Below are positions 38,683-62,160 of a stretch of DNA of 64,000 nt, in pieces (position 1 is the stretch's first letter; each line of letters starts with the position of its first letter). Below the pieces are notes generated by a model that searched no databases, had not been told where the DNA came from, and saw only the letters and a list, made by a program, of their open reading frames with translations. The stretch is from Daejeonella sp. H1SJ63 (GTDB lineage Bacteria; Bacteroidota; Bacteroidia; Sphingobacteriales; Sphingobacteriaceae). Location of the stretch: NCBI RefSeq assembly GCF_029360775.1, contig NZ_JARKMZ010000039.1:1-64000 (forward strand), in the 5' to 3' direction. The position numbers and the translations under genes are program-made.

Positions 38683-39501
38683 TCAGATATTGCCCATTGC
38701 CATCATTTGTTCAAGGCTGGGACTTATACTTCCTCCCCGGGGTTCAAGAGTAACGGCAAAGGCCTCAGCTGATTTTACTGACTTCATTTTCTTCATGCCG
38801 GCAGTAGAAGATCCTGAATCAAAAACACCAAGATCAACAGGCTTTCCGTCAACAATTGCCCATAGCTGATATTGATGTTCATTGTCGTTTGAAGGCATTT
38901 TCAGGTTTGACATATCAATCATAACCTCTTCACGGTCAGGGTTGAAAGCAAGGGTGACGCGTGCATCAGGAGCTTTTTCTGAACCTTTCAGTGTAATTAA
39001 TTTATAGGAAGCAGGATTTCTGTAGTATTGAAGCGTGTTCTTTGCTTCAGTCAATTCATTCTCAATATAGTTTACCTGATTAGAGAATTTTTGATTCCCG
39101 GATTCAAGAACTGCTATTTGAGTATAGGATTCTCTCAGTTTATTATTCAGGTTAATCAATAATATAATGCTGATAAACAAAAGACTTAGAGAAGCTGCAA
39201 ATGCATATTTGTAAAACTTTGTTGTTCCCGAAGCTTTTTCAATTTGCTTCACCGGGACTTCATTTTTATTGCCGGGAATTTCCAGCGCATCAATAATTTT
39301 GGATCTGTTCCTTACTGAAGGTTCAATAGCATTTTGCTGTGCATATTTCTGCAAAGCATTTTCAATCTCTTCCAGCTCACGCCTGATTTCAGGATATTGA
39401 ACAACATACCTTTCAACCTCAAGCATTTCGTCTTTGCTCAGGTCGCCAAGAACATACTGCTCAAGTATTCCGCTTTCCAAATATGTTTTCAGGTCTTTCA
39501 C
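38683..39501 (-). CDS. anti-sigma factor (RskA-like)
   Basis: A 272-residue single-pass membrane protein. The N-terminal cytosolic anti-sigma domain (about 1-60; LEQYVLGDLSKDEMLEVERY) binds the sigma factor. One transmembrane helix sits near 95-117 (YAFAASLSLLFISIILLINL), then a coiled-coil segment. A periplasmic RskA-type domain (about 165-272) has HQYQLWAIVDGKPVDLGVF and FAVTLEPRGGS. It starts right after the sigma gene stop, so the pair is translationally coupled. It likely holds the sigma factor at the membrane until a periplasmic signal triggers release. Confidence 0.9.
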   Translation of the reverse strand: MKDLKTYLESGILEQYVLGDLSKDEMLEVERYVVQYPEIRRELEEIENALQKYAQQNAIEPSVRNRSKIIDALEIPGNKNEVPVKQIEKASGTTKFYKYAFAASLSLLFISIILLINLNNKLRESYTQIAVLESGNQKFSNQVNYIENELTEAKNTLQYYRNPASYKLITLKGSEKAPDARVTLAFNPDREEVMIDMSNLKMPSNDNEHQYQLWAIVDGKPVDLGVFDSGSSTAGMKKMKSVKSAEAFAVTLEPRGGSISPSLEQMMAMGNI

Positions 39502-40053
39502 TTAATTAAATACCTTTCTTAACGTAATAATAGCATTTCTTAGTCTTGTTTTTACAGTCCCTAATGGAATTTCCAGTTGTTCTGCCACTTCAACATGTGT
39601 ATAACCTTTATAATAGACAAGATCAAGCACCATTTTTTGATCAGGTTTTAATTTTTCTACCAGCTCTTTTAGTCCAAGAGTTTCGGGATTCATTTCTGAT
39701 TGAAAATTTCCTTCTATAGATAGTACGTTATTCTCTATGTTTTCGGTTTTGGAACTGTTACGGAAATCTTTTGACCTGGTTTTATCGATCGCAATATTTC
39801 TTGCAATATTAACCATCCATGTAAATAATTTACCTCTTGAAGTATCATAGGATGAAAAGGAATTCCAGATTCTGATAAAAGTCTCCTGCAGCAGGTCTTC
39901 GGCTATTTCTTCATGAAGCACAATTCTGTAAATAACACCATACAGTGAAGAAGAATACATATCATATAATGCTTCTGCTCCGATTTTATCCTTATTCTGT
40001 ATAGCCTGAATAAGTTCCGGTTCTGTAAGTGATATTTTAGTTTTTCGGCCCAA
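39502..40053 (-). CDS. ECF RNA polymerase sigma factor
   Basis: A 183-residue sigma-70 family factor of the ECF type. Region 2 is YDMYSSSLYGVIYRIVLHEE to LLQETFIRIWNSF, with the WMVNIARNIAIDKTR element. Region 4 is MVLDLVYYKGYTHVEVAEQL, followed by EIPLGTVKTRLRNAI. Together with the downstream RskA-like gene it resembles SigK/RskA pairs. The upstream fasciclin gene, on the same strand but separated by a terminator, may be its target, a common arrangement in Bacteroidota. Confidence 0.93.
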   Translation of the reverse strand: MGRKTKISLTEPELIQAIQNKDKIGAEALYDMYSSSLYGVIYRIVLHEEIAEDLLQETFIRIWNSFSSYDTSRGKLFTWMVNIARNIAIDKTRSKDFRNSSKTENIENNVLSIEGNFQSEMNPETLGLKELVEKLKPDQKMVLDLVYYKGYTHVEVAEQLEIPLGTVKTRLRNAIITLRKVFN

Positions 40054-40118
40054 TGTTTATGATCGTTCCTTTAATTTTGATTATTATTCATTAAATCAAC
40101 AGGCACAATATAAATAGA

Positions 40119-40148
40119 ATTAAAGCTCCGGATTTTTGCCGGAGCTTT
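40119..40148 (-). terminator. terminator of the fasciclin gene
   Basis: Stem AAAGCTCCGG/CCGGAGCTTT with a 7-nt loop, located 26-52 bp after the fasciclin stop. On the minus strand the tail is TTTAATTC. It parts the fasciclin gene from sigma/anti-sigma. Confidence 0.8.
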
Positions 40149-40173
40149 TTTTACATTTTTTTGATTAAGTTAA

Positions 40174-40725
40174 TTATTTGGGTAATACAACATTATCGAT
40201 AACATGGATTACACCATTTTTCTGATTCACATCTGCAATGCTTACCATTGATGTTCCGCCATTTTCATCTTTAAGAATCAATTCTTTGCCCTTCATCATG
40301 GCCCATAGCTTTCCACCGCTAACAGTAGTGAATTCTGCACTTCCTTTACCCGCTTTTATCGCTTTCACAATTTCTGCTGAATCGTATTTTCCTGATAGGA
40401 CGTGATAGGTGAGTATTTTGGTCAGCATTGCTTTATTTTCAGGTTTAACAAGATTGGAAACGGTTCCATCAGGGAGTTTATTGAACGCATCATTGGTAGG
40501 TGCAAAAACTGTGAAAGGTCCATCACTTTTCAATGTTTCTACCAGGCCTGCTGCTTTTACCGCAGTTACAAGTGTGGTATGGTCTTTGGAATTTACGGCA
40601 TTGTCAACAATGTCTTTGCCTGGATACATGGCCGCACCACCAACCATTTTAGTATTCTGAGCCATTGTTTGAGTGCTGATTGCAGAAGCTGCTAGTGCAA
40701 TCGCAAGAATAAATATCTGTTTCAT
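40174..40725 (-). CDS. secreted fasciclin (FAS1) domain protein
   Basis: A 183-residue protein with a Sec signal peptide (MKQIFILAIALAASAISTQTMAQ). It has one FAS1 domain (about 40-183), with the H1 motif GPFTVFAPTNDAFNKLP, the YH element ILTYHVLSGKY, and H2-like NGVIHVIDNVVLPK. FAS1 domains mediate adhesion or matrix interactions. The adjoining ECF sigma/anti-sigma pair hints at envelope-stress or surface control of this gene. Confidence 0.92.
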   Translation of the reverse strand: MKQIFILAIALAASAISTQTMAQNTKMVGGAAMYPGKDIVDNAVNSKDHTTLVTAVKAAGLVETLKSDGPFTVFAPTNDAFNKLPDGTVSNLVKPENKAMLTKILTYHVLSGKYDSAEIVKAIKAGKGSAEFTTVSGGKLWAMMKGKELILKDENGGTSMVSIADVNQKNGVIHVIDNVVLPK

Positions 40726-41212: not shown

Positions 41213-41233
41213 TTGAATGTAAAAATACATGGT

Positions 41234-43732
41234 ATGAAGTTCAGATCACTATTTTGTAAAGTGCTTATCTCCGGAATCAGCATGTTCTACTGTTCGAATG
41301 TTTATGCTCAGGCAGATCAGCAGCGGGTCGAAAGTTTGAAACGCAATGTTGAATCATTGATTAAAATGAGTCTTGAAGAGGTGAAATCACAAGTGCCGAT
41401 TGCTTCAGGTATACATTTTATCGGGTGTCCAAATTGTAATGGAGGAGCTCAGGAGATGAATGTACTTGGCTGGACACCCGAACTGGGCGAAAGTGTGAAG
41501 TGTAATTTTTGCGGTATGACTTTCCCAAATGAGAAATTTCCGGATAATAAGGAGAAAGTGATTATTGCTCCGGGTGGGGCTAAGCAGGTTTACCGGTATT
41601 ATGAAAACCAGGAGGGGACGCAATATTTTTATCAGGCACATGCATGGTTTGAGCGCTGGAAATGGATTCAGCAGCAGGGGCAGCAACTTGCACAGGTATG
41701 GGCAGCTACCAGAGATAATGCCTATGGCGACAGGGCAGCGGCAATTGCGGGGCGATTTGCCCAGGTGTTTCCTGATTATGCTATTCGTTATGATTATCCG
41801 AGTGCGGCAAAGAAGTTCTTTCCGGCAGATCAGAAGTGGCCCTATCAGGGACTTGTTCCATACCGGGGCGCTAAATGGAACTGGTGGGCTTATGGCGATA
41901 TTCCCTCTCAGATGGCTAATGTTTATGATATTCTTAAAGATGGCTATGAATGGGCAAGAATGGATAAGCTGATAGGTAAAGATACTGACAAGAGAATCGT
42001 GACTGACCTTCTGGTGATGGGATATGATTTTACAGCGGCAAATCCTGAAATTTATACTAATATGTCGCCGGGAATGTATCGTGATATGGTGCGTTTGGGA
42101 AGAATTCTGAACAGACCTGATATGGTACATGATGGTGTCGGTAGGTTTACCGAATTTTTAAAACTCGGGTTCTATTCTGACGGCTGGTGGAAAGAGGGAA
42201 CGGCTTCTTATCATGACCAGACGATCGGCGGCTTAAGAAGTGTGGCGGAGGCAGCATATGGATATACTGACCCGGCCGACCTGAAGGCAGAGCGTTTTGA
42301 TAATCTGGATCTTACGAAATCAATGCCATTTTTTAAAGGTGCCCTGGCTGTGACTCAGAATGCAATTCTGCCTAACGGACGTAAAATTCCTCTAAATGAT
42401 ACCTGGGCAATCAGGGGCACGAAACAGAAGCCTTTGGATGTCTCCGTTTCAAAATTATGGGCTGCCTACGGAAATGCGGCATTCGGTGCAGGAAGTGCTG
42501 ATAATCAGTTTATGTTAAATATGAACTGGAGTGGTAATTATGGTCACCATCACCTTGATAATGCATCAATTATACTTTATGCTTCAGGTCAGGAGTTATT
42601 GTCTGATATAGGCTATACCCATTCAAAATACAGGGGGTGGACTCTCCATACCGCTTCACACAATACAGTTGTAATTAATCAGAAAGTGCAGGATACAGGT
42701 ACTAAGGAAAATCCGGCAAGTGGTAAACTGAAATTTTATGATGACCTGAATCCAAATGTAAAAGTGATGGACATTGATGCTTCACCTGCCTATAAATCTG
42801 CAAATCAATATCGCAGAAGGCTGATTCATATTCATGCTGCAGAAGGGAAAGATTATGTGATAGACCGATTTGATGTTAGGGGTGGTACTACTCACGATTG
42901 GTTTCTGCACGGTATGTGCGAAGAAGAAGGAGTATTTGAAAGCAGTATTCCGGTTAATACTTCTGTGACTACACTGGTTCCTTCATGGGGCGGCACTGCA
43001 AAACCCAAAAATCAGTACGAGGCCGATAATGAGGGTAAAAGAATTCACGCTTATAGCTATTTAAGGGATATTAAGACAGCTGAAGCAGATAAATCCTGGA
43101 CAGCAACATGGAGATACCAGAATTCGGGCTTGAGAACACATAACATTTCGCAGGCGGGAACAAAAATTTACACTTTTAAGGCTCCTTCAGTCAGACTTGC
43201 CGATGAGAATGATAATAAACTGGATGATTATATGCGTTTGGGATACATGCAAAGGCATGAAGGAGGGCAGTCATCTTTCATCGCTGTGCATGAACCATTT
43301 AAAACTAATCCCTGGATTAAATCTGTTAAAGCTGCGGAAGACACATATATTATAACGTATGAACTTGAAGGTAAAACGGTTCAGGACCGTGTTAAAATTA
43401 ATGGAGACAGAGTTCAGGTTGTTTCAGGGGCAGGGTGGAAGTATGATTCAGGCGGAGAGGTGAAAGGCGGAGTGAAGGATCTGGTAAATATCAATGAAAA
43501 GTGGACTCTTAAAACTGATCGTACAGTTCCTGATGTTTCTTTTGTACGTCTTGATTTTCCAAATGGTGATACCGTTTATTGTCGTGTAAGTGGGGTTAAA
43601 GGAAATATGATTGAGCTTGAAGAAGATCCGGGCTTGAGGATGGAAAATGAGGAGAAAATGCGTTTTATAACCTTCCCTCATACCGAATATTCAGGAAAGT
43701 TGAACTTTACAGTATTCCAATCAACAAAATAG
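41234..43732 (+). CDS. heparinase II/III-like polysaccharide lyase, secreted
   Basis: An approximately 832-residue exported protein (leader RSLFCKVLISGISMFYC to VYAQ). Near the N-terminus two CPNC/CNFC pairs (GCPNCNGG and VKCNFCGMTF) form a zinc-ribbon-like knuckle. An (alpha/alpha) toroid follows (about 100-400; WWKEGTASYHDQTIGG). The heparinase II/III-like beta domain has GNYGHHHLDNASIILYASG and LLSDIGYTHSKYRGW. The family eliminates uronic-acid-containing polysaccharides. I chose the ATG at 41234 over an upstream TTG (41213). It is a single-gene unit under operator site 1. Confidence 0.88.
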   Translation: MKFRSLFCKVLISGISMFYCSNVYAQADQQRVESLKRNVESLIKMSLEEVKSQVPIASGIHFIGCPNCNGGAQEMNVLGWTPELGESVKCNFCGMTFPNEKFPDNKEKVIIAPGGAKQVYRYYENQEGTQYFYQAHAWFERWKWIQQQGQQLAQVWAATRDNAYGDRAAAIAGRFAQVFPDYAIRYDYPSAAKKFFPADQKWPYQGLVPYRGAKWNWWAYGDIPSQMANVYDILKDGYEWARMDKLIGKDTDKRIVTDLLVMGYDFTAANPEIYTNMSPGMYRDMVRLGRILNRPDMVHDGVGRFTEFLKLGFYSDGWWKEGTASYHDQTIGGLRSVAEAAYGYTDPADLKAERFDNLDLTKSMPFFKGALAVTQNAILPNGRKIPLNDTWAIRGTKQKPLDVSVSKLWAAYGNAAFGAGSADNQFMLNMNWSGNYGHHHLDNASIILYASGQELLSDIGYTHSKYRGWTLHTASHNTVVINQKVQDTGTKENPASGKLKFYDDLNPNVKVMDIDASPAYKSANQYRRRLIHIHAAEGKDYVIDRFDVRGGTTHDWFLHGMCEEEGVFESSIPVNTSVTTLVPSWGGTAKPKNQYEADNEGKRIHAYSYLRDIKTAEADKSWTATWRYQNSGLRTHNISQAGTKIYTFKAPSVRLADENDNKLDDYMRLGYMQRHEGGQSSFIAVHEPFKTNPWIKSVKAAEDTYIITYELEGKTVQDRVKINGDRVQVVSGAGWKYDSGGEVKGGVKDLVNINEKWTLKTDRTVPDVSFVRLDFPNGDTVYCRVSGVKGNMIELEEDPGLRMENEEKMRFITFPHTEYSGKLNFTVFQSTK

Positions 43733-43847: not shown

Positions 43848-44054
43848 GGGTTTGATTACCTGTTAAACTGGATTTTAAGGGGCTTACCAGGTATAAAGAG
43901 TACATATGTCAGTTAAATCCGGATGTAATATCTCAGTAATTAAGCTTTGATTGAGGATTATTGAAATTTTAATAAATAATTTAGGTTCGTGAAATTCATC
44001 ATGATAGTTGAAAACGGTGCTTTCACATAAATGATTTTAAGAAAAATAGCAAGA

Positions 44055-46154
44055 ATGAATACTAATTTAAAAGGCAGATCAGCCTTACTGGCAACTTTAA
44101 TCTTATTGGCTGGTAACAGCTTTGCACAACGTTATCCATCGGCATTGAGTCCGGAAGAATCAATGAAGAAAATGAGTGTTGCCGATGGTTTTTCGGTGCA
44201 GTTATTTGCTTCTGAACCACATGTTTTCGATCCTGTGGCACTCGAATTTGATGAACAGGGAAATGCTTATGTTGTAGAAATGCCTGATTATCCCTATGAA
44301 GTTGAACCGGGTAAAGGCCATGGACGTATTCGCATTCTGAAAGACACCAATGGCGATGGGAAAATTGACAAATCGATCATTTTTGCTGAAAATGTCACAG
44401 AGGCGACAAGTATTTTGCCATGGAAAGGTGGTTTAATTGTTACAGCGGCACCCAATATCCTCTACTTAAAAGACAACAATGGTGACGGGAAATCAGATAG
44501 CTCCGAAATTTTGTTCTCAGGTTTTTTTCAGAACAATTCTGAAGCTCAGGTTACCAGCCTCAGACTGGGAGTTGATAACTGGATATACGCCAATAACCGC
44601 GGTCAAAGCGGTAAAGTTGTTTACAGCAAAACTCCCGGGGCAGCACCGCTTGAAGTAAGAGGAGCTGATTTTCGTTTCAGGTTAGATCGTAATGTTTTTG
44701 AATTGGAAACCGGTCCCGGACAATTTGGTCAGACCATTGATGACTGGGGACATCGTTTCTTCACTGAAAATTCTATTCACCTGCAGCAGGCTATCATTCC
44801 ATGGAGATATACTCACCGGCATGCGTTTATGCCAGGCAGTAAGTTTAATGTATCAATTACAGATCATGAGGAAATCATGTTTCAGGAAATTCCGCCGGCT
44901 TATTGGAGAGCCGAAAGAAGTGCCCGTAGAAATAAAATGTATAAAGAGGCAAATCTGAACAGAATAGAGTATGCTGAAGATCGTTTTACAGGTGCATCAG
45001 GCGGTACTATATATAATGGCGATGCTTTGTCTAAAGAATTTTATGGTAATGTATTTACAACAGATGTGTCGGGTAGTTTGATCCACAGGGATATTTTGAT
45101 TCCTTCTGAAACCAGTCCTGTACTTGTAGCAAAGCGTGCCGGTTCTGAAAAAAGCAGAGAGTTTATCTACTCCACTGATACCTGGTTCCGCCCGGTTACC
45201 TTTTCTGTAGGTCCTGATGGATATTTATATGTTCTGGATTATTACAGACAGCATATTGAAACTCCGGTATCAATTCCTGATGATCTTAAGGCTGAAATGG
45301 ATTTCATGGCAGGAAGCGATATGGGAAGGATTTATCGTGTAGTTCCGGCTAATACAAGTTATAAAGGTGTTAGTGTGAATTTAAGAGATGCATCCAGTGA
45401 AAAATTATTAGAGTATTTATCGCACAATAATGGATGGTATCGTTCTAATGCGCAGCGTTTACTTTTAGAGCGTCAGGATAAATCAATTATTCCTGCAGTT
45501 AAAGTATTAGTTTCAAAAGCACAGAGTTCAAGAGCAAGACTTCATGCATTATATGTGCTTGAAGGTATGGATGCACTTGATGTTGCCATAATCAAACAGG
45601 CGCTTCAGGATTCTGAGCCCGGTGTTCGTGAGAATGCGATCATTCTGGCCGAAAGGTTTCCTAAAACATTGCCATTAGTGATAAAAATGATTAATGACCC
45701 CTCTAAGAGAGTGGCATTGCAGGCTGCACTTAGCCTTGGGGAATTTAAAGGGAAATCAGTTTTCCGGTCACTGGCAGAAGTTGTTAAAATGCATGGTCAG
45801 AATGAGTGGTTCAGAAGTGCTGTTTTGAGCTCTGATCAGGGTTCATCTGTTGAAATTTTAAATGAACTTGCTAAGGATGATTCATTCTTCAGTAAGGAAG
45901 AAGCCTGGAAATTAAGCTTTGTTCAGGATCTGTCTAATGTAATTGCAGCAAGGTATGATAAGGCTCAGTTCTCTTCCTATCTGAATTTACTTTCAGGTGC
46001 AGCACTTGCAGGTACTAATATTCAGACCGCAGCGTTAAAAGGATTGAAAATCGGATTAAATAAAAATGAATCAACCAAAGAACTTGCTGCCGGATTGAGC
46101 ACAGGTTCTGCTGAAGATGTAAAAGCAGGTTTTTCTTTGCTAAAAAAGAACTAA
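44055..46154 (+). CDS. PVC-type membrane-bound dehydrogenase-like propeller with HEAT repeats
   Basis: An approximately 699-residue exported protein (leader ALLATLILLAGNSFAQ). The first 400 residues match the beta-propeller of the Planctomycetes-type putative dehydrogenase domain: VADGFSVQLFASEP, VVEMPDYPYE, ILKDTNGDGKIDK, and RFRLDRNVFELETGPGQFGQ. The EF-hand-like DTNGDGK and DNNGDGK loops are probably calcium sites. HEAT-like helical repeats fill the C-terminal 250 residues. The usual C-terminal cytochrome c (CxxCH) is absent; the HiPIP gene 45 bp downstream may replace it. The ATG at 44055 was preferred over 44031. Confidence 0.85.
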   Translation: MNTNLKGRSALLATLILLAGNSFAQRYPSALSPEESMKKMSVADGFSVQLFASEPHVFDPVALEFDEQGNAYVVEMPDYPYEVEPGKGHGRIRILKDTNGDGKIDKSIIFAENVTEATSILPWKGGLIVTAAPNILYLKDNNGDGKSDSSEILFSGFFQNNSEAQVTSLRLGVDNWIYANNRGQSGKVVYSKTPGAAPLEVRGADFRFRLDRNVFELETGPGQFGQTIDDWGHRFFTENSIHLQQAIIPWRYTHRHAFMPGSKFNVSITDHEEIMFQEIPPAYWRAERSARRNKMYKEANLNRIEYAEDRFTGASGGTIYNGDALSKEFYGNVFTTDVSGSLIHRDILIPSETSPVLVAKRAGSEKSREFIYSTDTWFRPVTFSVGPDGYLYVLDYYRQHIETPVSIPDDLKAEMDFMAGSDMGRIYRVVPANTSYKGVSVNLRDASSEKLLEYLSHNNGWYRSNAQRLLLERQDKSIIPAVKVLVSKAQSSRARLHALYVLEGMDALDVAIIKQALQDSEPGVRENAIILAERFPKTLPLVIKMINDPSKRVALQAALSLGEFKGKSVFRSLAEVVKMHGQNEWFRSAVLSSDQGSSVEILNELAKDDSFFSKEEAWKLSFVQDLSNVIAARYDKAQFSSYLNLLSGAALAGTNIQTAALKGLKIGLNKNESTKELAAGLSTGSAEDVKAGFSLLKKN

Positions 46155-46199
46155 TACTATTCGTCTTATTTAATAATGAGCCGATCAAATTAAATTGAT

Positions 46200-46586
46200 A
46201 TGGAAAACAAATATTCAAGAAGAAAATTCTTAGGTAAATATTTATTTGCCGGATCAGTGACTCTGGGTGCAGGTATTGTCATTGCAGGAAGTTCACTCAA
46301 GGCATTGGCTGAAGGATCAGATAAAAGTAAGGATCAGCAACCTAAGACGCCCCAGCCGGCACAGAAGAACCCATGTGATAACATGGCAGGAGTGAGTGCG
46401 GAAGAGCTTGAAAAGCGTAAAAAACTGGCATATGTTAACAAGACCCCAATAGCTGACAGTCATTGCAGTAATTGTACTTTATACATTCCGCCGGGCAAAG
46501 ATAAGCCTTGCGGAGGTTGTATGTTATTCAAAGGTCCTGTTCGTGCTGATGGATATTGTGCTTACTGGGCTCCTGTAAATAATTAA
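46200..46586 (+). CDS. Tat-exported high-potential iron-sulfur protein (HiPIP)
   Basis: A 128-residue protein with a twin-arginine leader (YSRRKFLGKYLFAGSV). The C-terminal part has the HiPIP ligand pattern: CSNC, then CMLFKGPVRADGYCAYW (C-x2-C ... C-x-x-F-x-G-x-V ... G-Y-C). An additional Cys (CGGC) is not part of the usual set. HiPIPs carry a [4Fe-4S] cluster cycling 3+/2+ and shuttle single electrons in the periplasm. Tat export of a prefolded cluster protein fits. It lies between the dehydrogenase-like and RidA genes, so an electron-acceptor role is likely. Confidence 0.85.
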   Translation: MENKYSRRKFLGKYLFAGSVTLGAGIVIAGSSLKALAEGSDKSKDQQPKTPQPAQKNPCDNMAGVSAEELEKRKKLAYVNKTPIADSHCSNCTLYIPPGKDKPCGGCMLFKGPVRADGYCAYWAPVNN

Positions 46587-46610: not shown

Positions 46611-47825
46611 ATGAAAAGGTTTATTCTTATAACTCTGCTGTTTTGTGCTATTGCAGGTTCAGCGCAGGAAAAAGGGGCGGTTTCGGGTAATAAAAAGGGA
46701 GTTCAGTACATTACTTCATCGTCAGGAGACTATTCAGATGCGGTAATTGTAGATGAGCTTCCGCTGGCGCATACAGTACAGTTTTTACCAATCGGCAAGA
46801 CCGGCAAAATTGCAGGCTCCGGTTTAAGGGAGCAAAGCAGCCAGGTATTTCAAAACCTATCTAAGGCGCTTAATAAATCAGGTTCCGGAATAGATAAGAT
46901 TATTAAGCTTAATGTTTATATCAGCAGTCATGAACTGAAAGATGAAGCAGTTTCTCTGATTAAAGAACGGTTTAAATCAGGAAAGGTACCTGCAATAAGT
47001 TTTGTGGCAGGTAAACTTGCTCATGAAGATGCCCTGATATGTATTGATGCAATTGCTGTTGCTTCAGGTTATCGGGGCCGGGAGGTAAAATATATAAATT
47101 CAGATTCTGCAGAGGGAATGGCAGATGTGGCTATAATGCCTGCAGGTTCAGCTGTTTATGTTTCCGGACAGGCAGATAAAGGGATGCTTTCTGCCGCAAG
47201 CAGAGGTACTTTAAAGCAGCTCGGTGAAACACTTGATCATCTCGGACTTAAGAAGAAGGATGTGGTACAGATCAAATCTTTTGTTAATCCGGTAACAAAT
47301 ATAGCTGTTGTAGAGCGCGAGATAGCTGATTTTTTTAAAGGTGAACGCATTCCTCCATTGGTATATGTAGAATGGTTAAGTAAAGATCCCCTGGTAGAAA
47401 TTGAACTCATTGCATCTTCTGTTAATACTCAAACTGATTCCAGAGAACAACTTGATTTTATTACACCTCCCGGAATGACAGCTTCACCGGTTTACAGTAA
47501 GGTTACCAGAATTAATTATGGCAATAAGATTTATATATCCGGGCTATTTGGTAATAATCCGGGAGAGGCTAAGCCTGAGATAATGGATATTTTTAATTCA
47601 ATGGATGCTATTCTTAAGAAATCAGGAAGTGATTTTAAGCATCTTGTGAAAGCAACATATTACGTAAGTAAAGATGCTCACAGTTCAGGTCTTAATGAAT
47701 TACGCCCGAAATTTTATGACCCTAAGCGACCACCTGCTGCATCTAAAGCTTTGGTTAAAGATGTAGGACTGAGAGGAGCAGGGCTTACAATTGATATGAT
47801 CGCTGTGCTAACTGAAAATAAATAA
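46611..47825 (+). CDS. secreted protein with three tandem RidA/YjgF-like domains
   Basis: A 404-residue exported protein (leader FILITLLFCAIAGSAQ). Three RidA-type repeats follow one another. The first (about 50-155) has GKTGKIAGSGLREQSSQVFQ. The second (about 160-275) has GSAVYVSGQADKG and LGETLDHLGLKKKDVV. The third (about 285-400) has GNKIYISGLFGNNPGE and DAILKKSGSDFKHLV. RidA proteins hydrolyse reactive enamine/imine intermediates in the cytosol; a periplasmic triple version is unusual. The catalytic Arg position is not clear in every repeat. It ends the three-gene operon with the propeller and HiPIP. Confidence 0.85.
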   Translation: MKRFILITLLFCAIAGSAQEKGAVSGNKKGVQYITSSSGDYSDAVIVDELPLAHTVQFLPIGKTGKIAGSGLREQSSQVFQNLSKALNKSGSGIDKIIKLNVYISSHELKDEAVSLIKERFKSGKVPAISFVAGKLAHEDALICIDAIAVASGYRGREVKYINSDSAEGMADVAIMPAGSAVYVSGQADKGMLSAASRGTLKQLGETLDHLGLKKKDVVQIKSFVNPVTNIAVVEREIADFFKGERIPPLVYVEWLSKDPLVEIELIASSVNTQTDSREQLDFITPPGMTASPVYSKVTRINYGNKIYISGLFGNNPGEAKPEIMDIFNSMDAILKKSGSDFKHLVKATYYVSKDAHSSGLNELRPKFYDPKRPPAASKALVKDVGLRGAGLTIDMIAVLTENK

Positions 47826-47926: not shown

Positions 47927-48035
47927 TATAAAGACGTGAAAATCAGTGCAGATGCGTCTGAAATAATTTCAGACTATTTTCCTGAAGGTTTTATGGAGTG
48001 ATACTCCTGATTATTTGTTGCCTTATATTATTATC

Positions 48036-49424
48036 ATGAAAAATAAAAACACCGATGCTTCAAGACGTAAGTTTTTAAAGCAAACATCTGTTGCAGGAGC
48101 AGGAGCTATGTTGTCTATGGGTATAAGCCCTTCATTGATGGCTAAAGGTCTTGATAACACTTCACGACCTGCAATTCTTGGCGGACCAGCAGCCTGGGAT
48201 AAGGCGAGATGGATTAAATGGCCAATTTGGATTCCTGAAACTGATGAGAAACGCGTTCTGGAAGTATTGAGAAGCGGAGTTTGGTCGCGTGCATCTGTTG
48301 TTTCAGAATTTGAGAAGGTTTGGTCAGATACTCTTGGCGTAAAGCGTACATTGCTTGTTAGCAACGGAACAAATGCACTTATAGTAGCTTTGAACCAGCT
48401 TGATATTAAAGCAGGTGATGAGGTTCTTGTTCCGCCATATACCTTTATTTCTACAGTTCAGGCTATTTTGATGAATGGGGCAATGCCGATATTTGTTGAT
48501 ATTGATCCTGAAACTTATCAGATTGATCCTGCAAAGATTGAAGCTAAGATTACTCCCAGAACCAAAGCAATATTGCCGGTGCACATCTTAGGAATGCCAG
48601 CCGATATGCCAAGAATAATGGAAATTGCTAAAAAGCATAATTTGTTAGTGGTTGAAGATGCTTGTCAGGCACCGCTTACAGAAATTAATAATAAGAAGGT
48701 AGGTACAATTGGCCATGCAGGCTGTTTCAGTTTCCAGAATTCTAAAAATATTCCAATTGGCGAGGGTGGTGCTGTAGTTAGTAATGATGAGGCATTTATC
48801 GATCGTTGTTTTTCATTTCAGAACCTTGGCTTGCCTTATGGTACTGCAGTTGGTACTTTTAATGCCGGAAGTGTAAGGATTGGCACTAAGGTCAGGTTAA
48901 CTGAATACCAGGCAGCTATTGGTTTGGCTCAGCTTAAGAGACTGGATGCGCAGACCACCACTCGTGAACAGAATGCCGCATACCTGAAATCTAAGATTGA
49001 AAACATTCCGGGTATTGTGCCTTATAAAACATATGATTCTGCAACCAGAATCTCATTCCATTTATTTTCCTTCAGATATAAGAAAGAATTTTTCCAGGGA
49101 TTGTCCAGAAATGCATTTATGCAGGCCTTAAGGGCAGAAGGAGTTCCTTGTTCGGGCGGGTATACCCCTTTAAATAAGCAGGAATTCTTAAAGGAAGCAT
49201 TTGCATCAAAGAATTACAAGCGGATGTATCATAAAGATATGCTTGACTATAACAAGTATATGGAGCAAAATCAATGTCCTGAAAACGACCTTTTATGTAC
49301 TGAAGCTGTATGGTTTACCCAAAATCTGCTTTTGGGAAGTAAAGAAGATATGGATTCGATTGCTTCAGCAATTGCAAAGATTCATGCAAATGCAGGCGAA
49401 GTTAAAAAGACTCTGGAAAAATAG
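48036..49424 (+). CDS. Tat-exported DegT/DnrJ/EryC1 family PLP-dependent enzyme
   Basis: An approximately 462-residue protein. A twin-arginine leader (ASRRKFLKQTSVAGAGAML) precedes a complete fold-type I sugar aminotransferase domain. The PLP site is visible: phosphate-binding LVSNGTNALIVAL, Asp in VVEDACQAPL, and Schiff-base Lys in SFQNSKNIPIGEGG. Cytosolic relatives transaminate keto-sugars for antibiotics and LPS. Export of a folded PLP enzyme by Tat is uncommon. It may aminate or deaminate a 3-keto- or 4-keto-sugar in the periplasm (inference). The ATG at 48036 was chosen over 48015. Confidence 0.87.
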   Translation: MKNKNTDASRRKFLKQTSVAGAGAMLSMGISPSLMAKGLDNTSRPAILGGPAAWDKARWIKWPIWIPETDEKRVLEVLRSGVWSRASVVSEFEKVWSDTLGVKRTLLVSNGTNALIVALNQLDIKAGDEVLVPPYTFISTVQAILMNGAMPIFVDIDPETYQIDPAKIEAKITPRTKAILPVHILGMPADMPRIMEIAKKHNLLVVEDACQAPLTEINNKKVGTIGHAGCFSFQNSKNIPIGEGGAVVSNDEAFIDRCFSFQNLGLPYGTAVGTFNAGSVRIGTKVRLTEYQAAIGLAQLKRLDAQTTTREQNAAYLKSKIENIPGIVPYKTYDSATRISFHLFSFRYKKEFFQGLSRNAFMQALRAEGVPCSGGYTPLNKQEFLKEAFASKNYKRMYHKDMLDYNKYMEQNQCPENDLLCTEAVWFTQNLLLGSKEDMDSIASAIAKIHANAGEVKKTLEK

Positions 49425-49476: not shown

Positions 49477-50814
49477 ATGAATAAAATTGAAGGAATTGAA
49501 GAGGGGATAGTTATGCCCTTTACTTCAGATCTGGGCAGTACTTTGACTGCAAAAACATATAATTCGGGCTTCCTGCAAGCTCATGATACGTATAATGCCC
49601 TCTCAGCGGCAAGTGACGGAAAAATCTATTATGTACTTTCATCTGATCGGGTAGACGTTGGTGGTAAAATGTATGTCTATGATCCTTCAACGGATCAGAC
49701 AAAATTTATTGCTGACCTTACTGAAGTCTGCGGTGAGAAGGATCATGGCTGTATCCCTCAGGGGAAGAGTCATACACGGTTTTATGAGAAAAATGGCAAG
49801 CTGTATTTTTCAACCCATGTAGGTTTTTATGAATTAATCAAAGGGATGGATCGTTTACCTGTAAATCCGCCTGCAGGCTATAAGCTATATCCCGGAGGTC
49901 ATATTCTTTCCTATGATCTGAAAAGCGGTGAATTTGAGGATCTGGCTGTTTTGCCTAATGGTGAGGGTATGGTTTCCATGACAATGGATATTGAACGTGG
50001 CCATATTTATGGTATTACATGGCCAAAAGGCAGGTTTGTTCATTATGATATCAATACGGGAGTACTTAGAAATTTAGGACAGATATCCCATAATGGTGAG
50101 GATGGTGAGCCCGGTGACGATTTTCGTTCATTGTGTCGTTCACTGGTGATAAACCCACTTAATGGCACTGTTTATTTTTCAATTTCTGAAGGGGATATTT
50201 GGGGTTATAATCCTGAGGAGGGTGTAATTAAAAAATTAGAAAATACTAATCTGAGACTTGATTATTTTGGAAAGTATGATCCCACCCGTCCGGGTAGTAT
50301 GGGTTATAACTGGAGGAAGATTTTTTGGTATAAACCTGAAAACACCGCATATGGAGTACATGGGAATTCCGGATACTTATTCAGATTCCATCCTGAAAAG
50401 CCGAACATTGAGCTCGTGCAAAGGATTACTTCAGAGCCCTCTCAAAAAAGTGGGATGTTCGACCAGTTTAGTTATGGTTACCTTGGATTTCAATTAGGTC
50501 CGGATGGTAAAACGATTTATTATCTGACCGGTGGACCTATTTATGTTGATGGAAAGAGGGTTGCAGGAGCGTCAGAGATAGCGAAAGGTGCAGCCAAGGG
50601 ACTTGAAAACCTTCATCTGATTACTTATAATATCCCGGAAGGCAGGTATCAGGATCATGGTCCCATATTTTATGAAGATGGTGATCGTCCCCTTTATGTA
50701 AATTCAATCGCAGTAGGAAAAGGTGGAGAAGTTTATGCATTAGCAAGAGTTACTGAAAATGATCATACGCGTACGGATTTGATCAAGATACCTAATCCAT
50801 TCGTCCAGTTTTAA
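49477..50814 (+). CDS. predicted beta-propeller protein of unknown function
   Basis: A 445-residue protein, no signal peptide. Repeating WD/NHL-like strands are apparent: DGKIYYVLSSDR, MYVYDPSTDQTKF, ILSYDLKSGEFED, FVHYDINTGVLRN and IWGYNPEEGVIKK. Each blade has a Y-D-x-x-(T/S)-G style turn, which suggests a seven-bladed propeller. It is probably cytoplasmic, unlike most of the locus, although an upstream leader may have been lost. The family is not recognised. It follows the DegT gene by 52 bp and ends at a strong terminator. Confidence 0.75.
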   Translation: MNKIEGIEEGIVMPFTSDLGSTLTAKTYNSGFLQAHDTYNALSAASDGKIYYVLSSDRVDVGGKMYVYDPSTDQTKFIADLTEVCGEKDHGCIPQGKSHTRFYEKNGKLYFSTHVGFYELIKGMDRLPVNPPAGYKLYPGGHILSYDLKSGEFEDLAVLPNGEGMVSMTMDIERGHIYGITWPKGRFVHYDINTGVLRNLGQISHNGEDGEPGDDFRSLCRSLVINPLNGTVYFSISEGDIWGYNPEEGVIKKLENTNLRLDYFGKYDPTRPGSMGYNWRKIFWYKPENTAYGVHGNSGYLFRFHPEKPNIELVQRITSEPSQKSGMFDQFSYGYLGFQLGPDGKTIYYLTGGPIYVDGKRVAGASEIAKGAAKGLENLHLITYNIPEGRYQDHGPIFYEDGDRPLYVNSIAVGKGGEVYALARVTENDHTRTDLIKIPNPFVQF

Positions 50815-51150: not shown

Positions 51151-54100
51151 ATGCTAAAAATTTACATGATGGCGTTTAAAAAACACAGGTACTTTCCCTC
51201 CGGAGCAGGGATGGTAATGCTGATGATGCTTCTGCTCAGTTTTTCCGGGCAGGCAGTTTCTCAGCAACTAAAGAACATTACCGGTACTGTTCTTGAAGCA
51301 GGGCAGCCTTTACCCGGTGTAACCGTAAGGGTTAAAGGAACCAGCAGAGGAACTACTACTCTGGCTAATGGAAAATACAGTATACAGGCAGCAAATAATG
51401 AAACGATTGTATTTGCGTTTTTAGGGATGGTCACTCAGGAAACTGTTGTTGGCAATCGTACTACAATTAATATAAGCCTTCAGGCATCAAGTGCTTCATT
51501 AAGTGAGGTAGTTGTGATTGGTTATGGAACTGTTGCAAAACCTGATCTTACCGGTTCTGTTGGTGTGGTACCAATGGATGAAATGTTAAAAGCGCCGGTT
51601 GGAACATTTGCAGAAGCTTTGGCTGGTCGTGTTGCCGGTGTAAAAGTTAATGCTGCCGATGGTCAGCCGGGTGGTGGTATTAATATCGTAATCCGTGGTG
51701 CGGGTTCCCTTACTCAAAGTACTTCTCCTCTGTATGTAATTGATGGCTTCCCGGTGGAAGATCCGGATCCGGCATCTATCAACCCTGAGGAGATTGAATC
51801 AATGACCATCTTAAAGGATGCTTCGTCAACTGCGATCTACGGATCGAGAGCGGCAAACGGAGTAATTTTGATTCAAACGAAACGTGGTAAAGTAGGAAAA
51901 CCGGTTATTAATTTCTCAAGTTCCTATGGAATGCAGGCAGTTCCGAAACCAATGGATCTGATGAGCCCGTATGAGTTCATTAAATACCAGATGGAGCTGA
52001 ATCCGGCATCTGCAACTACAACTGCATTCTTTGCCGGCGGTAAAACTCTGGAAGATTACAAAAACGTTGAAGGAATTAATTTCCAGGATTATGTATTGCA
52101 GCAAGGTACGGTGCAGAATTATAATCTGGCATTGAGAGGTGGTACTGAGCAAACAAAGTATTCTATTTCAGGTTCATTATTTGATCAGGTTGGTTCAATT
52201 ATAAATACCGGCTTCAACCGTTATTCAGGTCGTGTAACAGTTGACCAAACGATCAGTAATAAGATCAAAGCGGGTGTTACTGCAAATTATAGTGGAATCA
52301 AACAAAACGGACAAATCATTAACCAGGGTGCATTGACTTCGGGCAACCCTACTGCTTTTGCATTATCAAGAGCATGGTTGTATCGTCCGATTACACCAAA
52401 TCCAACTGATGATCTATTGGCTGATGCAGTGGATGATGAAGCGATGAATGCATCTGACTTCAGGGTTAATCCATTTATTGATCTTCAAAATCAGCACTCT
52501 TATAATATCACCAACCTTGTTGAAGGAAACGGATATGTTAGTTATGATATCAACAAAGATTTCACATTGAAGTCTACTGCAGGTGTACGTCATAATAAAC
52601 TGACCTTAGAGCGCTTTTATAATTCAAAAACTGCACAAGGCGGATCAAGTCCGAATAACGTAAATGGTGTTAATGGTTCGATTAATAATATTTTTTCGAA
52701 CAGTTTCTCCAATGAGACTACGCTGAATTACAAGAAAACCATTAAAAAGGATCATAATATTACCGGTCTGGCATTATTCGCTATTAACAGCAGTAATACG
52801 AGCGGTAAAGGATACGGCGGCAGATTGTTGCCAAACGAGAATCTTGGTATGGATGGATTGGATGAAGGTTTAGCATTTAATCAGACTTCATATTCCAGCC
52901 GTAATACCATGGCATCTTATGCAGGCCGCTTAGATTATAATTACAAATCTAAATACATTATAACCGGTACTTTCAGGGCTGACGGTTCGTCTAAGTTTAA
53001 GAATCACTGGGGATATTTTCCAGGAGCAGCATTAGCATGGAATATGCATAAAGAAGGTTTCTTTGCTAAGATTTTCCCGGGTATTTCAACTTCCAAACTT
53101 AGAACCAGTTATGGCAGCAATGGAAATAACAGGGTAGGTGATTTTGATACTTATGCACGTTTACTGCAAAATATCGATGGTTATTCATTCAATAACTCTA
53201 CCCCAATCGCTTCTAACTATGTTTCTGCTGTAGGTAATCCGGATCTGGCATGGGAAAAGGTAAATACAATAGATTTAGGTTATGAAATTGGTGTGCTGAA
53301 AGACAGGATCACTTTTGAAGTAGATTTATACAGAAAAACAACAGAAGATTTGTTGCTGAATGCAATTTTGCCTCCTTCAACAGGCTTTGGTTCAGCTGTT
53401 AAGAATATAGGAAAATTGAGGAATGATGGTCTTGAATTTACTTTAAATACCGTAAACGTGCAGTCTAAGAACTTCATGTGGGAAAGTAATTTTAACATCA
53501 GTTTCAACAGAAATAAAGTAATGGAACTAACCCGTGGGCAGCGTTCATTACCAAGTAACTCTGAATATGTTTCTCAGTTTAATAAGCCTTTATACGTAGC
53601 TGAAATTGGAAAACCTGCAGGTATGATGATCGGATATATCTGGGAAGGTAATTATCAGTATGGGGATTTTGATAATCCTTCTCCTGGTGTTTACATCCTG
53701 AAACCGAATATCCCAACCAATGGTGCAGTTAGAAATACTATTCTGCCGGGTGATATTAAATACAGAGATATCAATGGCGACGGAATCATGAATGATGCCG
53801 ATCTTACTTTTATTGGAAGAGGTCAGCCAATTCATACCGGTGGTTTTTCTAATAATTTTACATATAAAGCTTTCAGCCTGAATGTTTTCATGCAGTGGTC
53901 GTATGGTAATGATCTATACAATGCCAACAGACTGATTATGGAAGGTAATAGTAATGGCTGGGCTAATATCAATCAGTTTGCGAGCTATTCTAATCGTTGG
54001 TCGCCAACTAATCCAACAAATGCTAATTATCGTACCCGCGGACAAGGTCCAATTGGATTCCACTCTTCAAGAGTTGTTGAAGATGGTTCTTTCATTCGTC

Positions 54101-54327
54101 TTAAAACAGTTTCTTTGAATTACAACTTACCTGAGAAACTAATTAAGTCTGCTTACCTGAGTAGTTTAAGTGTAAACGTTTCTGCACAGAATCTGGTTAC
54201 CTGGACAAATTACTCAGGAATGGATCCGGAAGTATCAACCCGTAACAATACTCTGACTCCGGGCTTTGACTTCTCGTCCTATCCAAGATCACCGACAATT
54301 GCTTTTGGTATTAAAGCAGGATTTTAA
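51151..54327 (+). CDS. SusC/RagA-type TonB-dependent outer-membrane transporter
   Basis: A 1058-residue outer-membrane importer. It has a hydrophobic leader ending near SQQ, then a carboxypeptidase-D-like domain (about 40-115; NITGTVLEAGQPLPGVTVRV). The plug has the SusC signature DPASINPEEIESMTILKDAS and YGSRAANGVILIQTKRG. The barrel ends PTIAFGIKAGF. With SusD it binds oligosaccharides or similar ligands and imports them using TonB energy. It is first in the operon susC - susD - surface lipoprotein, controlled by sites 4 and 5. Confidence 0.96.
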   Translation: MLKIYMMAFKKHRYFPSGAGMVMLMMLLLSFSGQAVSQQLKNITGTVLEAGQPLPGVTVRVKGTSRGTTTLANGKYSIQAANNETIVFAFLGMVTQETVVGNRTTINISLQASSASLSEVVVIGYGTVAKPDLTGSVGVVPMDEMLKAPVGTFAEALAGRVAGVKVNAADGQPGGGINIVIRGAGSLTQSTSPLYVIDGFPVEDPDPASINPEEIESMTILKDASSTAIYGSRAANGVILIQTKRGKVGKPVINFSSSYGMQAVPKPMDLMSPYEFIKYQMELNPASATTTAFFAGGKTLEDYKNVEGINFQDYVLQQGTVQNYNLALRGGTEQTKYSISGSLFDQVGSIINTGFNRYSGRVTVDQTISNKIKAGVTANYSGIKQNGQIINQGALTSGNPTAFALSRAWLYRPITPNPTDDLLADAVDDEAMNASDFRVNPFIDLQNQHSYNITNLVEGNGYVSYDINKDFTLKSTAGVRHNKLTLERFYNSKTAQGGSSPNNVNGVNGSINNIFSNSFSNETTLNYKKTIKKDHNITGLALFAINSSNTSGKGYGGRLLPNENLGMDGLDEGLAFNQTSYSSRNTMASYAGRLDYNYKSKYIITGTFRADGSSKFKNHWGYFPGAALAWNMHKEGFFAKIFPGISTSKLRTSYGSNGNNRVGDFDTYARLLQNIDGYSFNNSTPIASNYVSAVGNPDLAWEKVNTIDLGYEIGVLKDRITFEVDLYRKTTEDLLLNAILPPSTGFGSAVKNIGKLRNDGLEFTLNTVNVQSKNFMWESNFNISFNRNKVMELTRGQRSLPSNSEYVSQFNKPLYVAEIGKPAGMMIGYIWEGNYQYGDFDNPSPGVYILKPNIPTNGAVRNTILPGDIKYRDINGDGIMNDADLTFIGRGQPIHTGGFSNNFTYKAFSLNVFMQWSYGNDLYNANRLIMEGNSNGWANINQFASYSNRWSPTNPTNANYRTRGQGPIGFHSSRVVEDGSFIRLKTVSLNYNLPEKLIKSAYLSSLSVNVSAQNLVTWTNYSGMDPEVSTRNNTLTPGFDFSSYPRSPTIAFGIKAGF

Positions 54328-57341: not shown

Positions 57342-58460
57342 ATGAGAACCATTCTGAATTATCCTGTTTATCTGTTACTGTTTACAGGCCTTTTTTTTAA
57401 TACAACAGCTGTAGTTGCAGACCACAAAGTTTATACTTCCGGCGATAAGGAAATTGGGTTTAACTCAGTTGATCCTGATAAATTTTCATCTCATTTAAGA
57501 AAGAGAATCCTGAAGAATATGGAGAAGGTAATGGGGAAATTACCTGATCGTAAAAATCTACCAGATTTGGATATTAAAATAACTGATAGCCTTAAGGATA
57601 ATGGTTTCACACGCTATTCTCTGAATTTTGCTACCGCTGAAAATGAAAGACTGACGGTTTATCTGTATGTTCCTAATCAAAGAGGAACGATCAAAAGACT
57701 TCCCGCAATGCTGGTTTTACATGGAACCCATGAATTGGGCAAAGGTGTTGTTGACGGTCAGGGGACCCGGCCGAACCGTGCACATGCACGTGAGCTTGCC
57801 CAACGAGGTTATGTTGTAATTGCACCGGATTATCCAGGTTTTGGTGAATTAAAAGATTATAATTTTGAAACTGACCGTTACCAATCTGGTACAATGCTGG
57901 CAATTTTTAATCATATGCGTTGCGTTGATCTGCTTCAGAGCAGGGCAGATGTTGATCCGGATAGGATTGGAGTAATAGGTCATTCATTAGGAGGACATAA
58001 CTCTATGTTTGTTGCGGCATTCGATGATCGGCTGAAAGTAACGGTATCAAGCTGCGGATGGACTCAGTTTGAAAATTATGATATCGGGGAGGCCGGAAGC
58101 AAAAGGTATGGTGGGAAATTGGGGCCATGGGCTCAGGACAGGTATATGCCTCTGGTCAGAACGAAGTATAATCTTGATGCTGCAAAACTTCCATTTAACT
58201 TTAGTGATGTTATTTCTGCTATTGCACCCCGGGCTTTCTTCTCAGTGTCTCCCCTGAATGACAGCAATTTCAATCTGGCTGGGGTAAAAAAGGGTATAGC
58301 AATTGCAAAAAAGGCCTATGAACAACTTGGGGCAGAAGAAATGATACAGATCAGATATCCTGATGCCGAACATGATTTTCCGGTTGAAAGCAGAAAAGAA
58401 GCCTATGTATTTATTGATAAGATTTTGCAATTTACACCCGGAAGTACAGAGCTGAAGTGA
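57342..58460 (+). CDS. secreted alpha/beta hydrolase, paralogue A
   Basis: A 372-residue exported hydrolase (leader VYLLLFTGLFFNTTAVVA). The triad elements are visible: oxyanion MLVLHGTHELG, nucleophile GVIGHSLGGHNS, Asp in SPLNDSNF, and His in PDAEHDFPVESRKEAY. The fold and elbow resemble acetyl-xylan esterase/dienelactone hydrolase-like enzymes; the substrate is unknown. A second copy follows 78 bp downstream, and the two are alike along almost the full length, so they are a tandem duplication. First gene of a four-gene unit ending at 62041. Confidence 0.9.
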   Translation: MRTILNYPVYLLLFTGLFFNTTAVVADHKVYTSGDKEIGFNSVDPDKFSSHLRKRILKNMEKVMGKLPDRKNLPDLDIKITDSLKDNGFTRYSLNFATAENERLTVYLYVPNQRGTIKRLPAMLVLHGTHELGKGVVDGQGTRPNRAHARELAQRGYVVIAPDYPGFGELKDYNFETDRYQSGTMLAIFNHMRCVDLLQSRADVDPDRIGVIGHSLGGHNSMFVAAFDDRLKVTVSSCGWTQFENYDIGEAGSKRYGGKLGPWAQDRYMPLVRTKYNLDAAKLPFNFSDVISAIAPRAFFSVSPLNDSNFNLAGVKKGIAIAKKAYEQLGAEEMIQIRYPDAEHDFPVESRKEAYVFIDKILQFTPGSTELK

Positions 58461-58538
58461 TCTTTTAGGGGAGTTATTAAAGACAGATTTACCCTATTTT
58501 AATTATTGATTTTATTCAACTTACCAGAAGATATTTTA

Positions 58539-59636
58539 ATGGATTATTTAATGCTAAATTTCAGGAAAGTCATAATTCTTTGCTTACTGATTCCTGTAAT
58601 CGGGTTCGCTCAGGATAATAATGCAGGTCAAAAAGCACTTTACGGCAATCATTCAGGAACACACGAAAAGCACAGAAAAGCTATTCTCAGGAATATGGAA
58701 GAAGTAATGGGTAAATTACCCTCAAGAGACCGTATTCGTATATCTGATATCAATATTTTAGATAGCCTTAAAGAAAAAACCTTTACCCGCTATAATATTT
58801 TATTTACCGTAGCCGCAAATGAAACTTTGCCTGTATATCTTTATGTACCTCATAGTTCAGCCGGAGGAAAGAAGCTTCCGGCTATGCTGGTTCTGCACGA
58901 AACAGATAATCTGGGCAGAAAAGCGGTCGACGGACAAGCAAATAAACCTAACAGAGCACATGCCAGAGAGCTTGCAGAGCGGGGATACGTGGTAATTGCA
59001 CCTGATTTTCCAAGCTTTGGGGAAACGGCTGATTATAATTTTGAAACAGACAGATATGACTCTGGTACGATGAAGGGTATTTTTAATCATATGCGTTGCA
59101 TTGATCTGCTGCAAAGTAAATCCTATGTAGATCCTGAACGTATAGGAGTAATCGGACACTCTCTGGGTGGTCATAATTCAATTTTTGTTGCAGCATTTGA
59201 TTCCAGAATTAAAGTAGCTGTAAGCAGTTGCGGATGGACACAATTTGAATACTACAGCATTGGAGAAGCTGCTGAAAAGAGATACGGTGGACGGCTTGGT
59301 CCATGGGCTCAGACCAGATATATGCCATTCATGAAGTCAAAGTTTGATCTTGATGGGGATCGTATTCCTTTCAATTTTGACAAAGCTATTGCAGCAATCG
59401 CTCCAAGAGCATTTTTCTCAGTTTCACCAATCCATGATTCGAACTTTGATTATAAAGGAGTTAAAGCCGGAATAGCACTGGTCGGACCTGTTTATAAGTC
59501 ACTCGGGGCCTCTGATCAATTACAGGTCAGGTATCCTGATGCAGAGCATGACTTTCCTGTAGAAAGCCGAAAAGAGGCTTATGCATTCATAGATAAAATA
59601 CTCAGTCATAAACCTGAGAACACAATAGTTAAATAA
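58539..59636 (+). CDS. secreted alpha/beta hydrolase, paralogue B
   Basis: Tandem duplicate of the gene before it, with a Sec leader (FRKVIILCLLIPVIGFAQ). The triad is conserved: GVIGHSLGGHNS, SPIHDSNF and DAEHDFPVESRKEAY. The GERGYVVIAPDFPSFGET-type and NFETDRYDSGTMKG segments differ only slightly from paralogue A. Oxyanion position: HETDN here versus HGTHE in A, the main active-site difference, which suggests different ester or lactone specificity. The frame starts at a TTG at 58506; ATG 58539 or 58551 is more likely. Confidence 0.88.
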   Translation: MDYLMLNFRKVIILCLLIPVIGFAQDNNAGQKALYGNHSGTHEKHRKAILRNMEEVMGKLPSRDRIRISDINILDSLKEKTFTRYNILFTVAANETLPVYLYVPHSSAGGKKLPAMLVLHETDNLGRKAVDGQANKPNRAHARELAERGYVVIAPDFPSFGETADYNFETDRYDSGTMKGIFNHMRCIDLLQSKSYVDPERIGVIGHSLGGHNSIFVAAFDSRIKVAVSSCGWTQFEYYSIGEAAEKRYGGRLGPWAQTRYMPFMKSKFDLDGDRIPFNFDKAIAAIAPRAFFSVSPIHDSNFDYKGVKAGIALVGPVYKSLGASDQLQVRYPDAEHDFPVESRKEAYAFIDKILSHKPENTIVK

Positions 59637-62139: not shown

Positions 62140-62157
62140 GTGTACGTTAACGCAATC
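62140..62157 (+). promoter_or_regulatory. operator, site 6, abutting the start codon
   Basis: GTGTACGTTAACGCAATC, with TATTTACG just before it as a weak -7 box. Only 3 bp separate it from the ATG of the DUF1080 gene at 62161. If transcription starts here, the mRNA would be almost leaderless. Confidence 0.55.
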
Positions 62158-62160
62158 AAA

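Follow-up and report, generated by a model that had tools for sequence, protein, structure and literature searches.

The window analysed here is a 64,000-nucleotide stretch of Daejeonella sp. H1SJ63 DNA (contig NZ_JARKMZ010000039.1, positions 1 to 64,000), from a genome of 3.65 Mb (G000 in our surveys). It contains a gene for a PVC-type beta-propeller/HEAT-repeat protein, followed on the same strand by a gene for a HiPIP. The main features are given below, with the number of loci, among the 29 of the subfamily described later, in which neighbouring families recur; these neighbour counts are lower bounds, the flanks being about 8 kb or less except in the window.

41213..43732 (+): upstream neighbour, protein with a heparinase II/III-like C-terminal domain (PF07940, 39 bits; 8/29 loci)
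44055..46154 (+): hemeless PVC-type beta-propeller (DUF7133/TIGR02604) plus HEAT protein (PF23500, TIGR02604, HEAT_2)
46155..46199 (+): intergenic gap of 45 bp from propeller to HiPIP, read from the sequence (-1 to 101 bp in the 29 loci)
46200..46586 (+): Tat-exported HiPIP (PF01355, 3h31 match, twin-arginine motif)
46611..47825 (+): RidA-like protein with three Ribonuc_L-PSP stretches and a signal-like N-terminus (PF01042, 126 bits; 11/29 loci)
48039..49424 (+): DegT/DnrJ aminotransferase with a Tat-like N-terminus, the ORF having a TTG start at 48015 (PF01041, 329 bits; 17/29 loci)
49477..50814 (+): conserved protein of 445 aa without Pfam or NCBIfam match, here named PROP (16/29 loci)
51151-54327 (+): SusC-like protein
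54347-56161 (+): SusD-like protein, forming a SusC/SusD pair with the preceding one (PF07715, PF13715, PF07980, PF14322)
57342..59636 (+): two tandem alpha/beta hydrolases resembling glucuronyl esterases (PF22244, PF00326)
59644-60627 (+): Amidohydro_2 protein (PF04909)
60668-62041 (+): Ceramidase_alk protein (PF04734)
62140-62889 (+): 3-keto-disaccharide hydrolase/DUF1080 protein (PF06439)

Upstream, on the opposite strand (38683-40725), are genes for an RskA_C anti-sigma protein, a probable ECF sigma factor and a fasciclin-like protein, the last two recognized by eye.

By its gene content, with a SusC/SusD pair and sugar-related hydrolases around the propeller and HiPIP genes, the locus appears PUL-like. 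Only the PVC and HiPIP families are found in all 29 loci; the next commonest are DegT (at least 17), SusC-like (at least 16), PROP (at least 16), ceramidase-like (at least 12) and RidA-like (at least 11), and the HiPIP gene stays beside the PVC gene across these differing neighbourhoods. One DUF1080 protein, BT2157, is a characterised 3-ketotrehalose hydrolase, and a second is proposed to act on 3'-ketolactose (PMC9007349); the presence of such keto-sugar hydrolases makes a glycoside-oxidising role plausible for the window locus. Exported RidA-like proteins adjoin periplasmic propeller/cytochrome genes both in the window (46611-47825) and at L179:12086-12550 (the latter by eye), and may clear reactive imines or enamines formed in the periplasm.

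The propeller ORF (44031-46154, +) has an upstream ATG at 44031 and an internal ATG at 44055, the start used by several homologues. Its product scores well above the family cut-offs for DUF7133 (PF23500, 383 bits against 27) and TIGR02604 (264 bits against 122.2), with a HEAT_2 match at residues 521-587 and, by eye, a Sec-type signal. It shares the DUF7133/TIGR02604 propeller, the HEAT repeats and export with the PVC-type CxxCH proteins (TIGR02604 + HEAT + TIGR02603), the nearest of which are 43, 40 and 38% identical to it. Unlike them it is about 300 residues shorter and lacks the heme domain, and its redox centre would lie in the separate HiPIP gene. No cysteine occurs anywhere in the protein, hence no CxxCH, and the ORF gives no match to TIGR02603, the model for the C-terminal heme domain. 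Eleven heme-type relatives, when aligned, extend 280-309 residues past its end, a length that exceeds the 133 residues of the heme domain, so extra HEAT-type sequence is missing as well. The initial annotation had described HEAT repeats that end without a CxxCH domain and a Tat-exported HiPIP starting 45 bp downstream; both statements hold, the first with the refinement just given.

The HiPIP itself reaches 27.2 bits with PF01355 (gathering cut-off 22) and is the sole PF01355 match in the window genome. It carries the twin-arginine motif SRRKF, lacks a lipobox, and has as its best solved match 3h31 (1.5e-18 with the single sequence, 2.8e-26 with a profile), the respiratory HiPIP of Rhodothermus marinus. 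Its cysteines lie in CxxC, CGGC and YC, with a sixth, N-terminal one, a six-cysteine pattern shared with 3h31, where the two extra cysteines form a disulfide. All six (C59, C89, C92, C104, C107 and C120) are invariant in 29 HiPIP rows, the four cluster cysteines show HiPIP-type spacing in the alignment to 3h31, and all 29 paired HiPIPs have an export signal of the form RRx[FL]. This Rhodothermus-type pattern is present in 29/29 PVC-linked HiPIPs and also in 27/27 other HiPIPs of our phylum sample, and so is no distinguishing mark of the linked ones. An AlphaFold model of the HiPIP (pLDDT 41.5) was too poor for use. The original remark that HiPIPs are best known from phototrophic Proteobacteria proved incomplete: the nearest solved relative is 3h31, and the window's own phylum contains, in genome G008 of the phylum sample (locus L046), a HiPIP with letters identical to 3h31 over the aligned part.

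Close relatives of the propeller were sought in three surveys, of the phylum (395 genomes), order (400) and class (395), each scoring at most two candidates per genome. The phylum survey gave 53 PVC-type matches falling into two groups, one of four (49-100% identity, 692-759 aa) and one of 49 (at most 39% identity, 860-1310 aa with one exception of 754 aa); more distant third or fourth paralogues lie outside these 53. The order survey gave 23 close copies in 21 genomes, where a third copy could hide only in G615 and G690, each already showing two, and the class survey found close copies in G000, G249 and G162 only. Together these are 26 distinct copies, the window and 25 fetched loci, to which we added two Cyclobacterium species and one Chitinophagaceae MAG, making 29 subfamily loci (L027 and L119 are one locus, counted once).

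Every one of the 29 propellers lacks CxxCH, and in every locus a HiPIP gene lies directly downstream on the same strand, with a gap of -1 to 101 bp. The pair recurs throughout the subfamily and is more than chance. Searching in reverse, a profile of the 29 HiPIPs found 23 HiPIPs in the 400 order genomes, in the same 21 genomes as the propeller and always adjacent to it. Elsewhere in the phylum HiPIPs are more independent: PF01355 has 33 matches in at least 32 of the 395 genomes, and lies beside a PVC-type match only in G000 and G249. Six further genomes (G131, G215, G246, G270, G313 and G392) hold both, on different contigs or separated by over 130 kb. These PF01355 counts are lower bounds, since at E 0.001 the model overlooked the HiPIPs of G162 and G171. 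Around 14 non-linked HiPIP loci with flanks, tblastn found no PVC-type protein (L140 having only 6.2 kb).

As controls we took 51 other PVC-type proteins, namely all 49 other phylum matches and the two nearest heme-type ones from the class survey. Their acceptors are a fused CxxCH in 30, an in-chain cupredoxin motif in 17, a separate cupredoxin gene in two and none visible in two, such that for 49/51 a heme or cupredoxin module is either part of the chain or encoded alongside. No HiPIP was found in the fetched flanks of the 51 (tblastn, 29 HiPIP queries, E 0.01), three of the 3' flanks being short (L155, 422 bp; L196, 760 bp; L195, 973 bp). A low-complexity frame at L154 that matched a loose cysteine pattern had no tblastn support and was taken as chance. 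Within this sample, HiPIP and the heme and cupredoxin modules are mutually exclusive. The proposal in the initial annotation, that the HiPIP takes the place of the missing heme domain, is thereby borne out at the level of gene content: HiPIP adjoins 29/29 hemeless subfamily members, which in the order occupy the same 21 of 400 genomes as the HiPIP, and 0/30 CxxCH-bearing relatives, the case that would have spoken against such a swap.

The window genome shows the same division. Seven of its proteins exceed the TIGR02604 cut-off; five of them also exceed that of TIGR02603, and a sixth, C10 (765 aa), combines CxxCH with a match to Cytochrome_CBB3, leaving the window protein as the only hemeless one. 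No HiPIP was found near four of the heme paralogues (L180-L182). Two oddities among the heme-type relatives may be recorded: L166 has a cupredoxin-like match in its flank on the opposite strand, and G246:C56:4711-6507 (L068, L183) is a heme-type PVC gene with one in-frame TGA reported by the search.

The cupredoxin relatives are, like the window protein, hemeless propeller-HEAT proteins with a metal-centre module of a separate type, blue copper in contrast to the predicted 4Fe-4S of the window pair. Among the 17 in-chain cases 17/17 loci matched the L170 cupredoxin by tblastn; six were scanned with Pfam, which confirmed L186, L187, L190, L193 and L202, where the cupredoxin is C-terminal, at the place otherwise taken by the cytochrome domain, and did not confirm L196. 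The two separate genes, L170:5587-6087 (-) and L185:4920-5423 (-), are directly 3' of hemeless DUF7133-HEAT genes and were confirmed with PF00127. Both lie near TIM-barrel and GFO/IDH/MocA genes and look like a blue-copper equivalent of the propeller and HiPIP genes. ThuA also occurs in the seven cupredoxin-type propellers scanned whole with Pfam (L170, L186, L187, L190, L193, L196 and L202). Two DUF7133-HEAT genes of one genus, L208:4972-7584 (-) and L210:5038-7776 (-), have no heme, cupredoxin or HiPIP visible nearby. A general rule that hemeless means HiPIP is ruled out by these 21 hemeless relatives without HiPIP (19 with cupredoxin and two acceptor-less).

A tree of 84 propeller domains (a quick method, unrooted, with several long branches elsewhere) unites the 29 HiPIP-linked rows in a single clade (SH-aLRT 99) and gives it the heme-type pair L177/L178 as sister (94), all inside a group of 30 heme and 29 HiPIP rows (99). 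The PVC-linked HiPIPs likewise fall all on one side of one branch (100/99) in a 74-column tree with 27 other HiPIPs, these being 27 of the 29 loci L031-L059, leaving out L059 (wrong ORF) and L058 (a duplicate of a linked HiPIP). The simplest reading of these trees is one heme loss and one HiPIP gain, followed by joint descent that would include the two pairs each in G615 and G690. As the pairing apparently arose once, the 29 loci are not independent events. Distances in the two partners correlate at 0.88 (n=29), and those of PVC and PROP at 0.94 (n=16; PVC-HiPIP on the same loci 0.92). The former is not above the latter, so it is high but unspecific, and a claim of co-evolution beyond shared history is unsupported.

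The HiPIP-paired propeller is not decaying, as the 29 HiPIP-paired rows and 18 nearer heme rows (out of 34, leaving out 12 more distant ones and four own-genome paralogues) share 42 positions that are at least 95% conserved in each set. Export of the two partners mostly agrees in type. A lipobox-like cysteine is present in 20/29 paired HiPIPs (the window copy is not among them), a difference from the R. marinus HiPIP in most loci; by eye, 18/29 PVC proteins have a lipobox, each paired with a lipobox HiPIP, and 9 of the 11 without are paired with a lipobox-less HiPIP. L120 and L121, in which a cysteine immediately precedes the putative cleavage site, are unsure and would be two exceptions if lipoproteins. 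This agreement largely mirrors one clade.

The fold of the propeller can be described from a weak model only (mean pLDDT 57, with residues 164-389 below 50). Compared by VIA, it gave AA12 6i1t first (Z 14.9, rmsd 4.5, 271 aligned), then 6jt5 (Z 13.8), the six-bladed hydrolase DFPase (about 13) and sGDH 1qbi (12.8), the DFPase matching as well as sGDH. AA12 came out on top only in this second look; Foldseek placed HEAT/armadillo and other large proteins first, with no dehydrogenase on top and 6jt5 at rank 25. On this weak model the window propeller may resemble PQQ sugar dehydrogenases, possibly sharing a six-bladed fold with sGDH and the AA12 pyranose dehydrogenases (CcPDH, 6jt5; T. reesei, 6i1t), but at only 11-13% identity in structural alignment. 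For neither AA12 enzymes nor sGDH do we know of a HiPIP partner. CcPDH carries a fused cytochrome b domain, and residues of its PQQ-binding and catalytic site have been described (PMC6881789). A PDB profile search with the propeller gave chance-level rows and no credible match, PF07995 (GSDH) matched 1/29 propellers (at 0.0063), and hhalign of the propeller against one GSDH protein of the window genome was null; in that genome L011 matches PF23500 and, below cut-off, PF07995. PQQ, if used, would probably be imported, as pqqE has no match over cut-off in the window genome; 14/14 controls likewise match below cut-off, so that this search had no positive control.

As possible electron sinks the window genome has three COX1 matches in all and a cluster encoding ActD, NrfD, Fe-S/molybdopterin-like, cytochrome c, COX2 and COX1 proteins. 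We read this cluster as a putative alternative complex III (ACIII) together with an oxidase of the aa3/caa3 type, whose COX2 showed no cytochrome domain.

We consider it quite probable that the two genes encode a single two-component periplasmic oxidoreductase, in which the HiPIP would act as a dedicated one-electron acceptor replacing the heme domain in trans. The propeller-HEAT protein would oxidise a substrate outside the cytoplasm, probably some sugar or glycoside that the PUL-like locus sets free; its HiPIP neighbour would take up one electron, as the in trans counterpart of the C-terminal cytochrome c domain of heme-type relatives; and the reduced HiPIP would pass electrons into the respiratory chain, perhaps to the cytochrome oxidase whose genes lie next to those of ACIII. 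We infer the dehydrogenase activity and the direct electron transfer, together with the substrate, cofactor and oxidase named here.

The strongest competitor, itself unlikely, is that the HiPIP is a general respiratory carrier from ACIII to an oxidase that merely shares an operon with the propeller. The R. marinus HiPIP, the closest solved relative, is described as being reduced by ACIII in respiration (PMC5928083, PMC8552683), and the window genome has an ACIII-oxidase cluster, whereas the window HiPIP adjoins a dehydrogenase-like gene. A general carrier would moreover not be expected to be confined to one gene neighbour, yet the 400 order genomes gave no HiPIP-profile match away from the hemeless propeller gene, and the pair persists while its surroundings change. 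Less probable again is a propeller that acts as a hydrolase or lyase, with the HiPIP serving another step of the locus. The six-bladed fold is common to DFPase-type hydrolases, and Lac161_ORF7, a TIGR02604-HEAT-cytochrome protein, is reported to hydrolyse lactose, as a beta-galactosidase (PMC5342196); but a hydrolase needs none of the heme or cupredoxin modules present in or beside nearly all the controls, and no third gene family was found in all 29 loci for the HiPIP to serve. That the propeller instead passes electrons to another periplasmic cytochrome, with a sensory or protective HiPIP, is very improbable: the 30 PF13442 cytochrome matches of the window genome would allow it, but it leaves the one-to-one presence of the partners and the mutual exclusion with built-in acceptors unexplained.

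Taken with its relatives, the pair of propeller and dedicated HiPIP acceptor suggests a family-wide pattern. The acceptor module of DUF7133 proteins looks interchangeable between heme c, blue copper and a detached HiPIP, because the propellers sampled include 30 cases of fused heme, 19 of cupredoxin and 29 of HiPIP. That three unrelated metal centres alternate here points strongly, if indirectly, to the DUF7133 propeller being a one-electron-coupled oxidoreductase. We lean, with somewhat less assurance than for the two-component system itself, towards a plug-in acceptor that may be any of the three and either fused or separate, the 4Fe-4S HiPIP being here the direct, dedicated acceptor of a sugar dehydrogenase of the propeller type, possibly a quinoprotein. 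To our knowledge there is no precedent for a HiPIP as the direct, dedicated physiological acceptor of such an enzyme, and open-access titles and abstract beginnings, among the matches listed, mention no pairing of a HiPIP and a PVC-type protein. Annotations of PVC-type CxxCH proteins are widespread, and the one functional report that we found on them is PMC5342196. With its HiPIP detached, the pair forms a system of two proteins that allows separate assays of substrate oxidation and of electron transfer, and the proposed role would place HiPIPs in the carbohydrate catabolism of non-phototrophic Bacteroidota.
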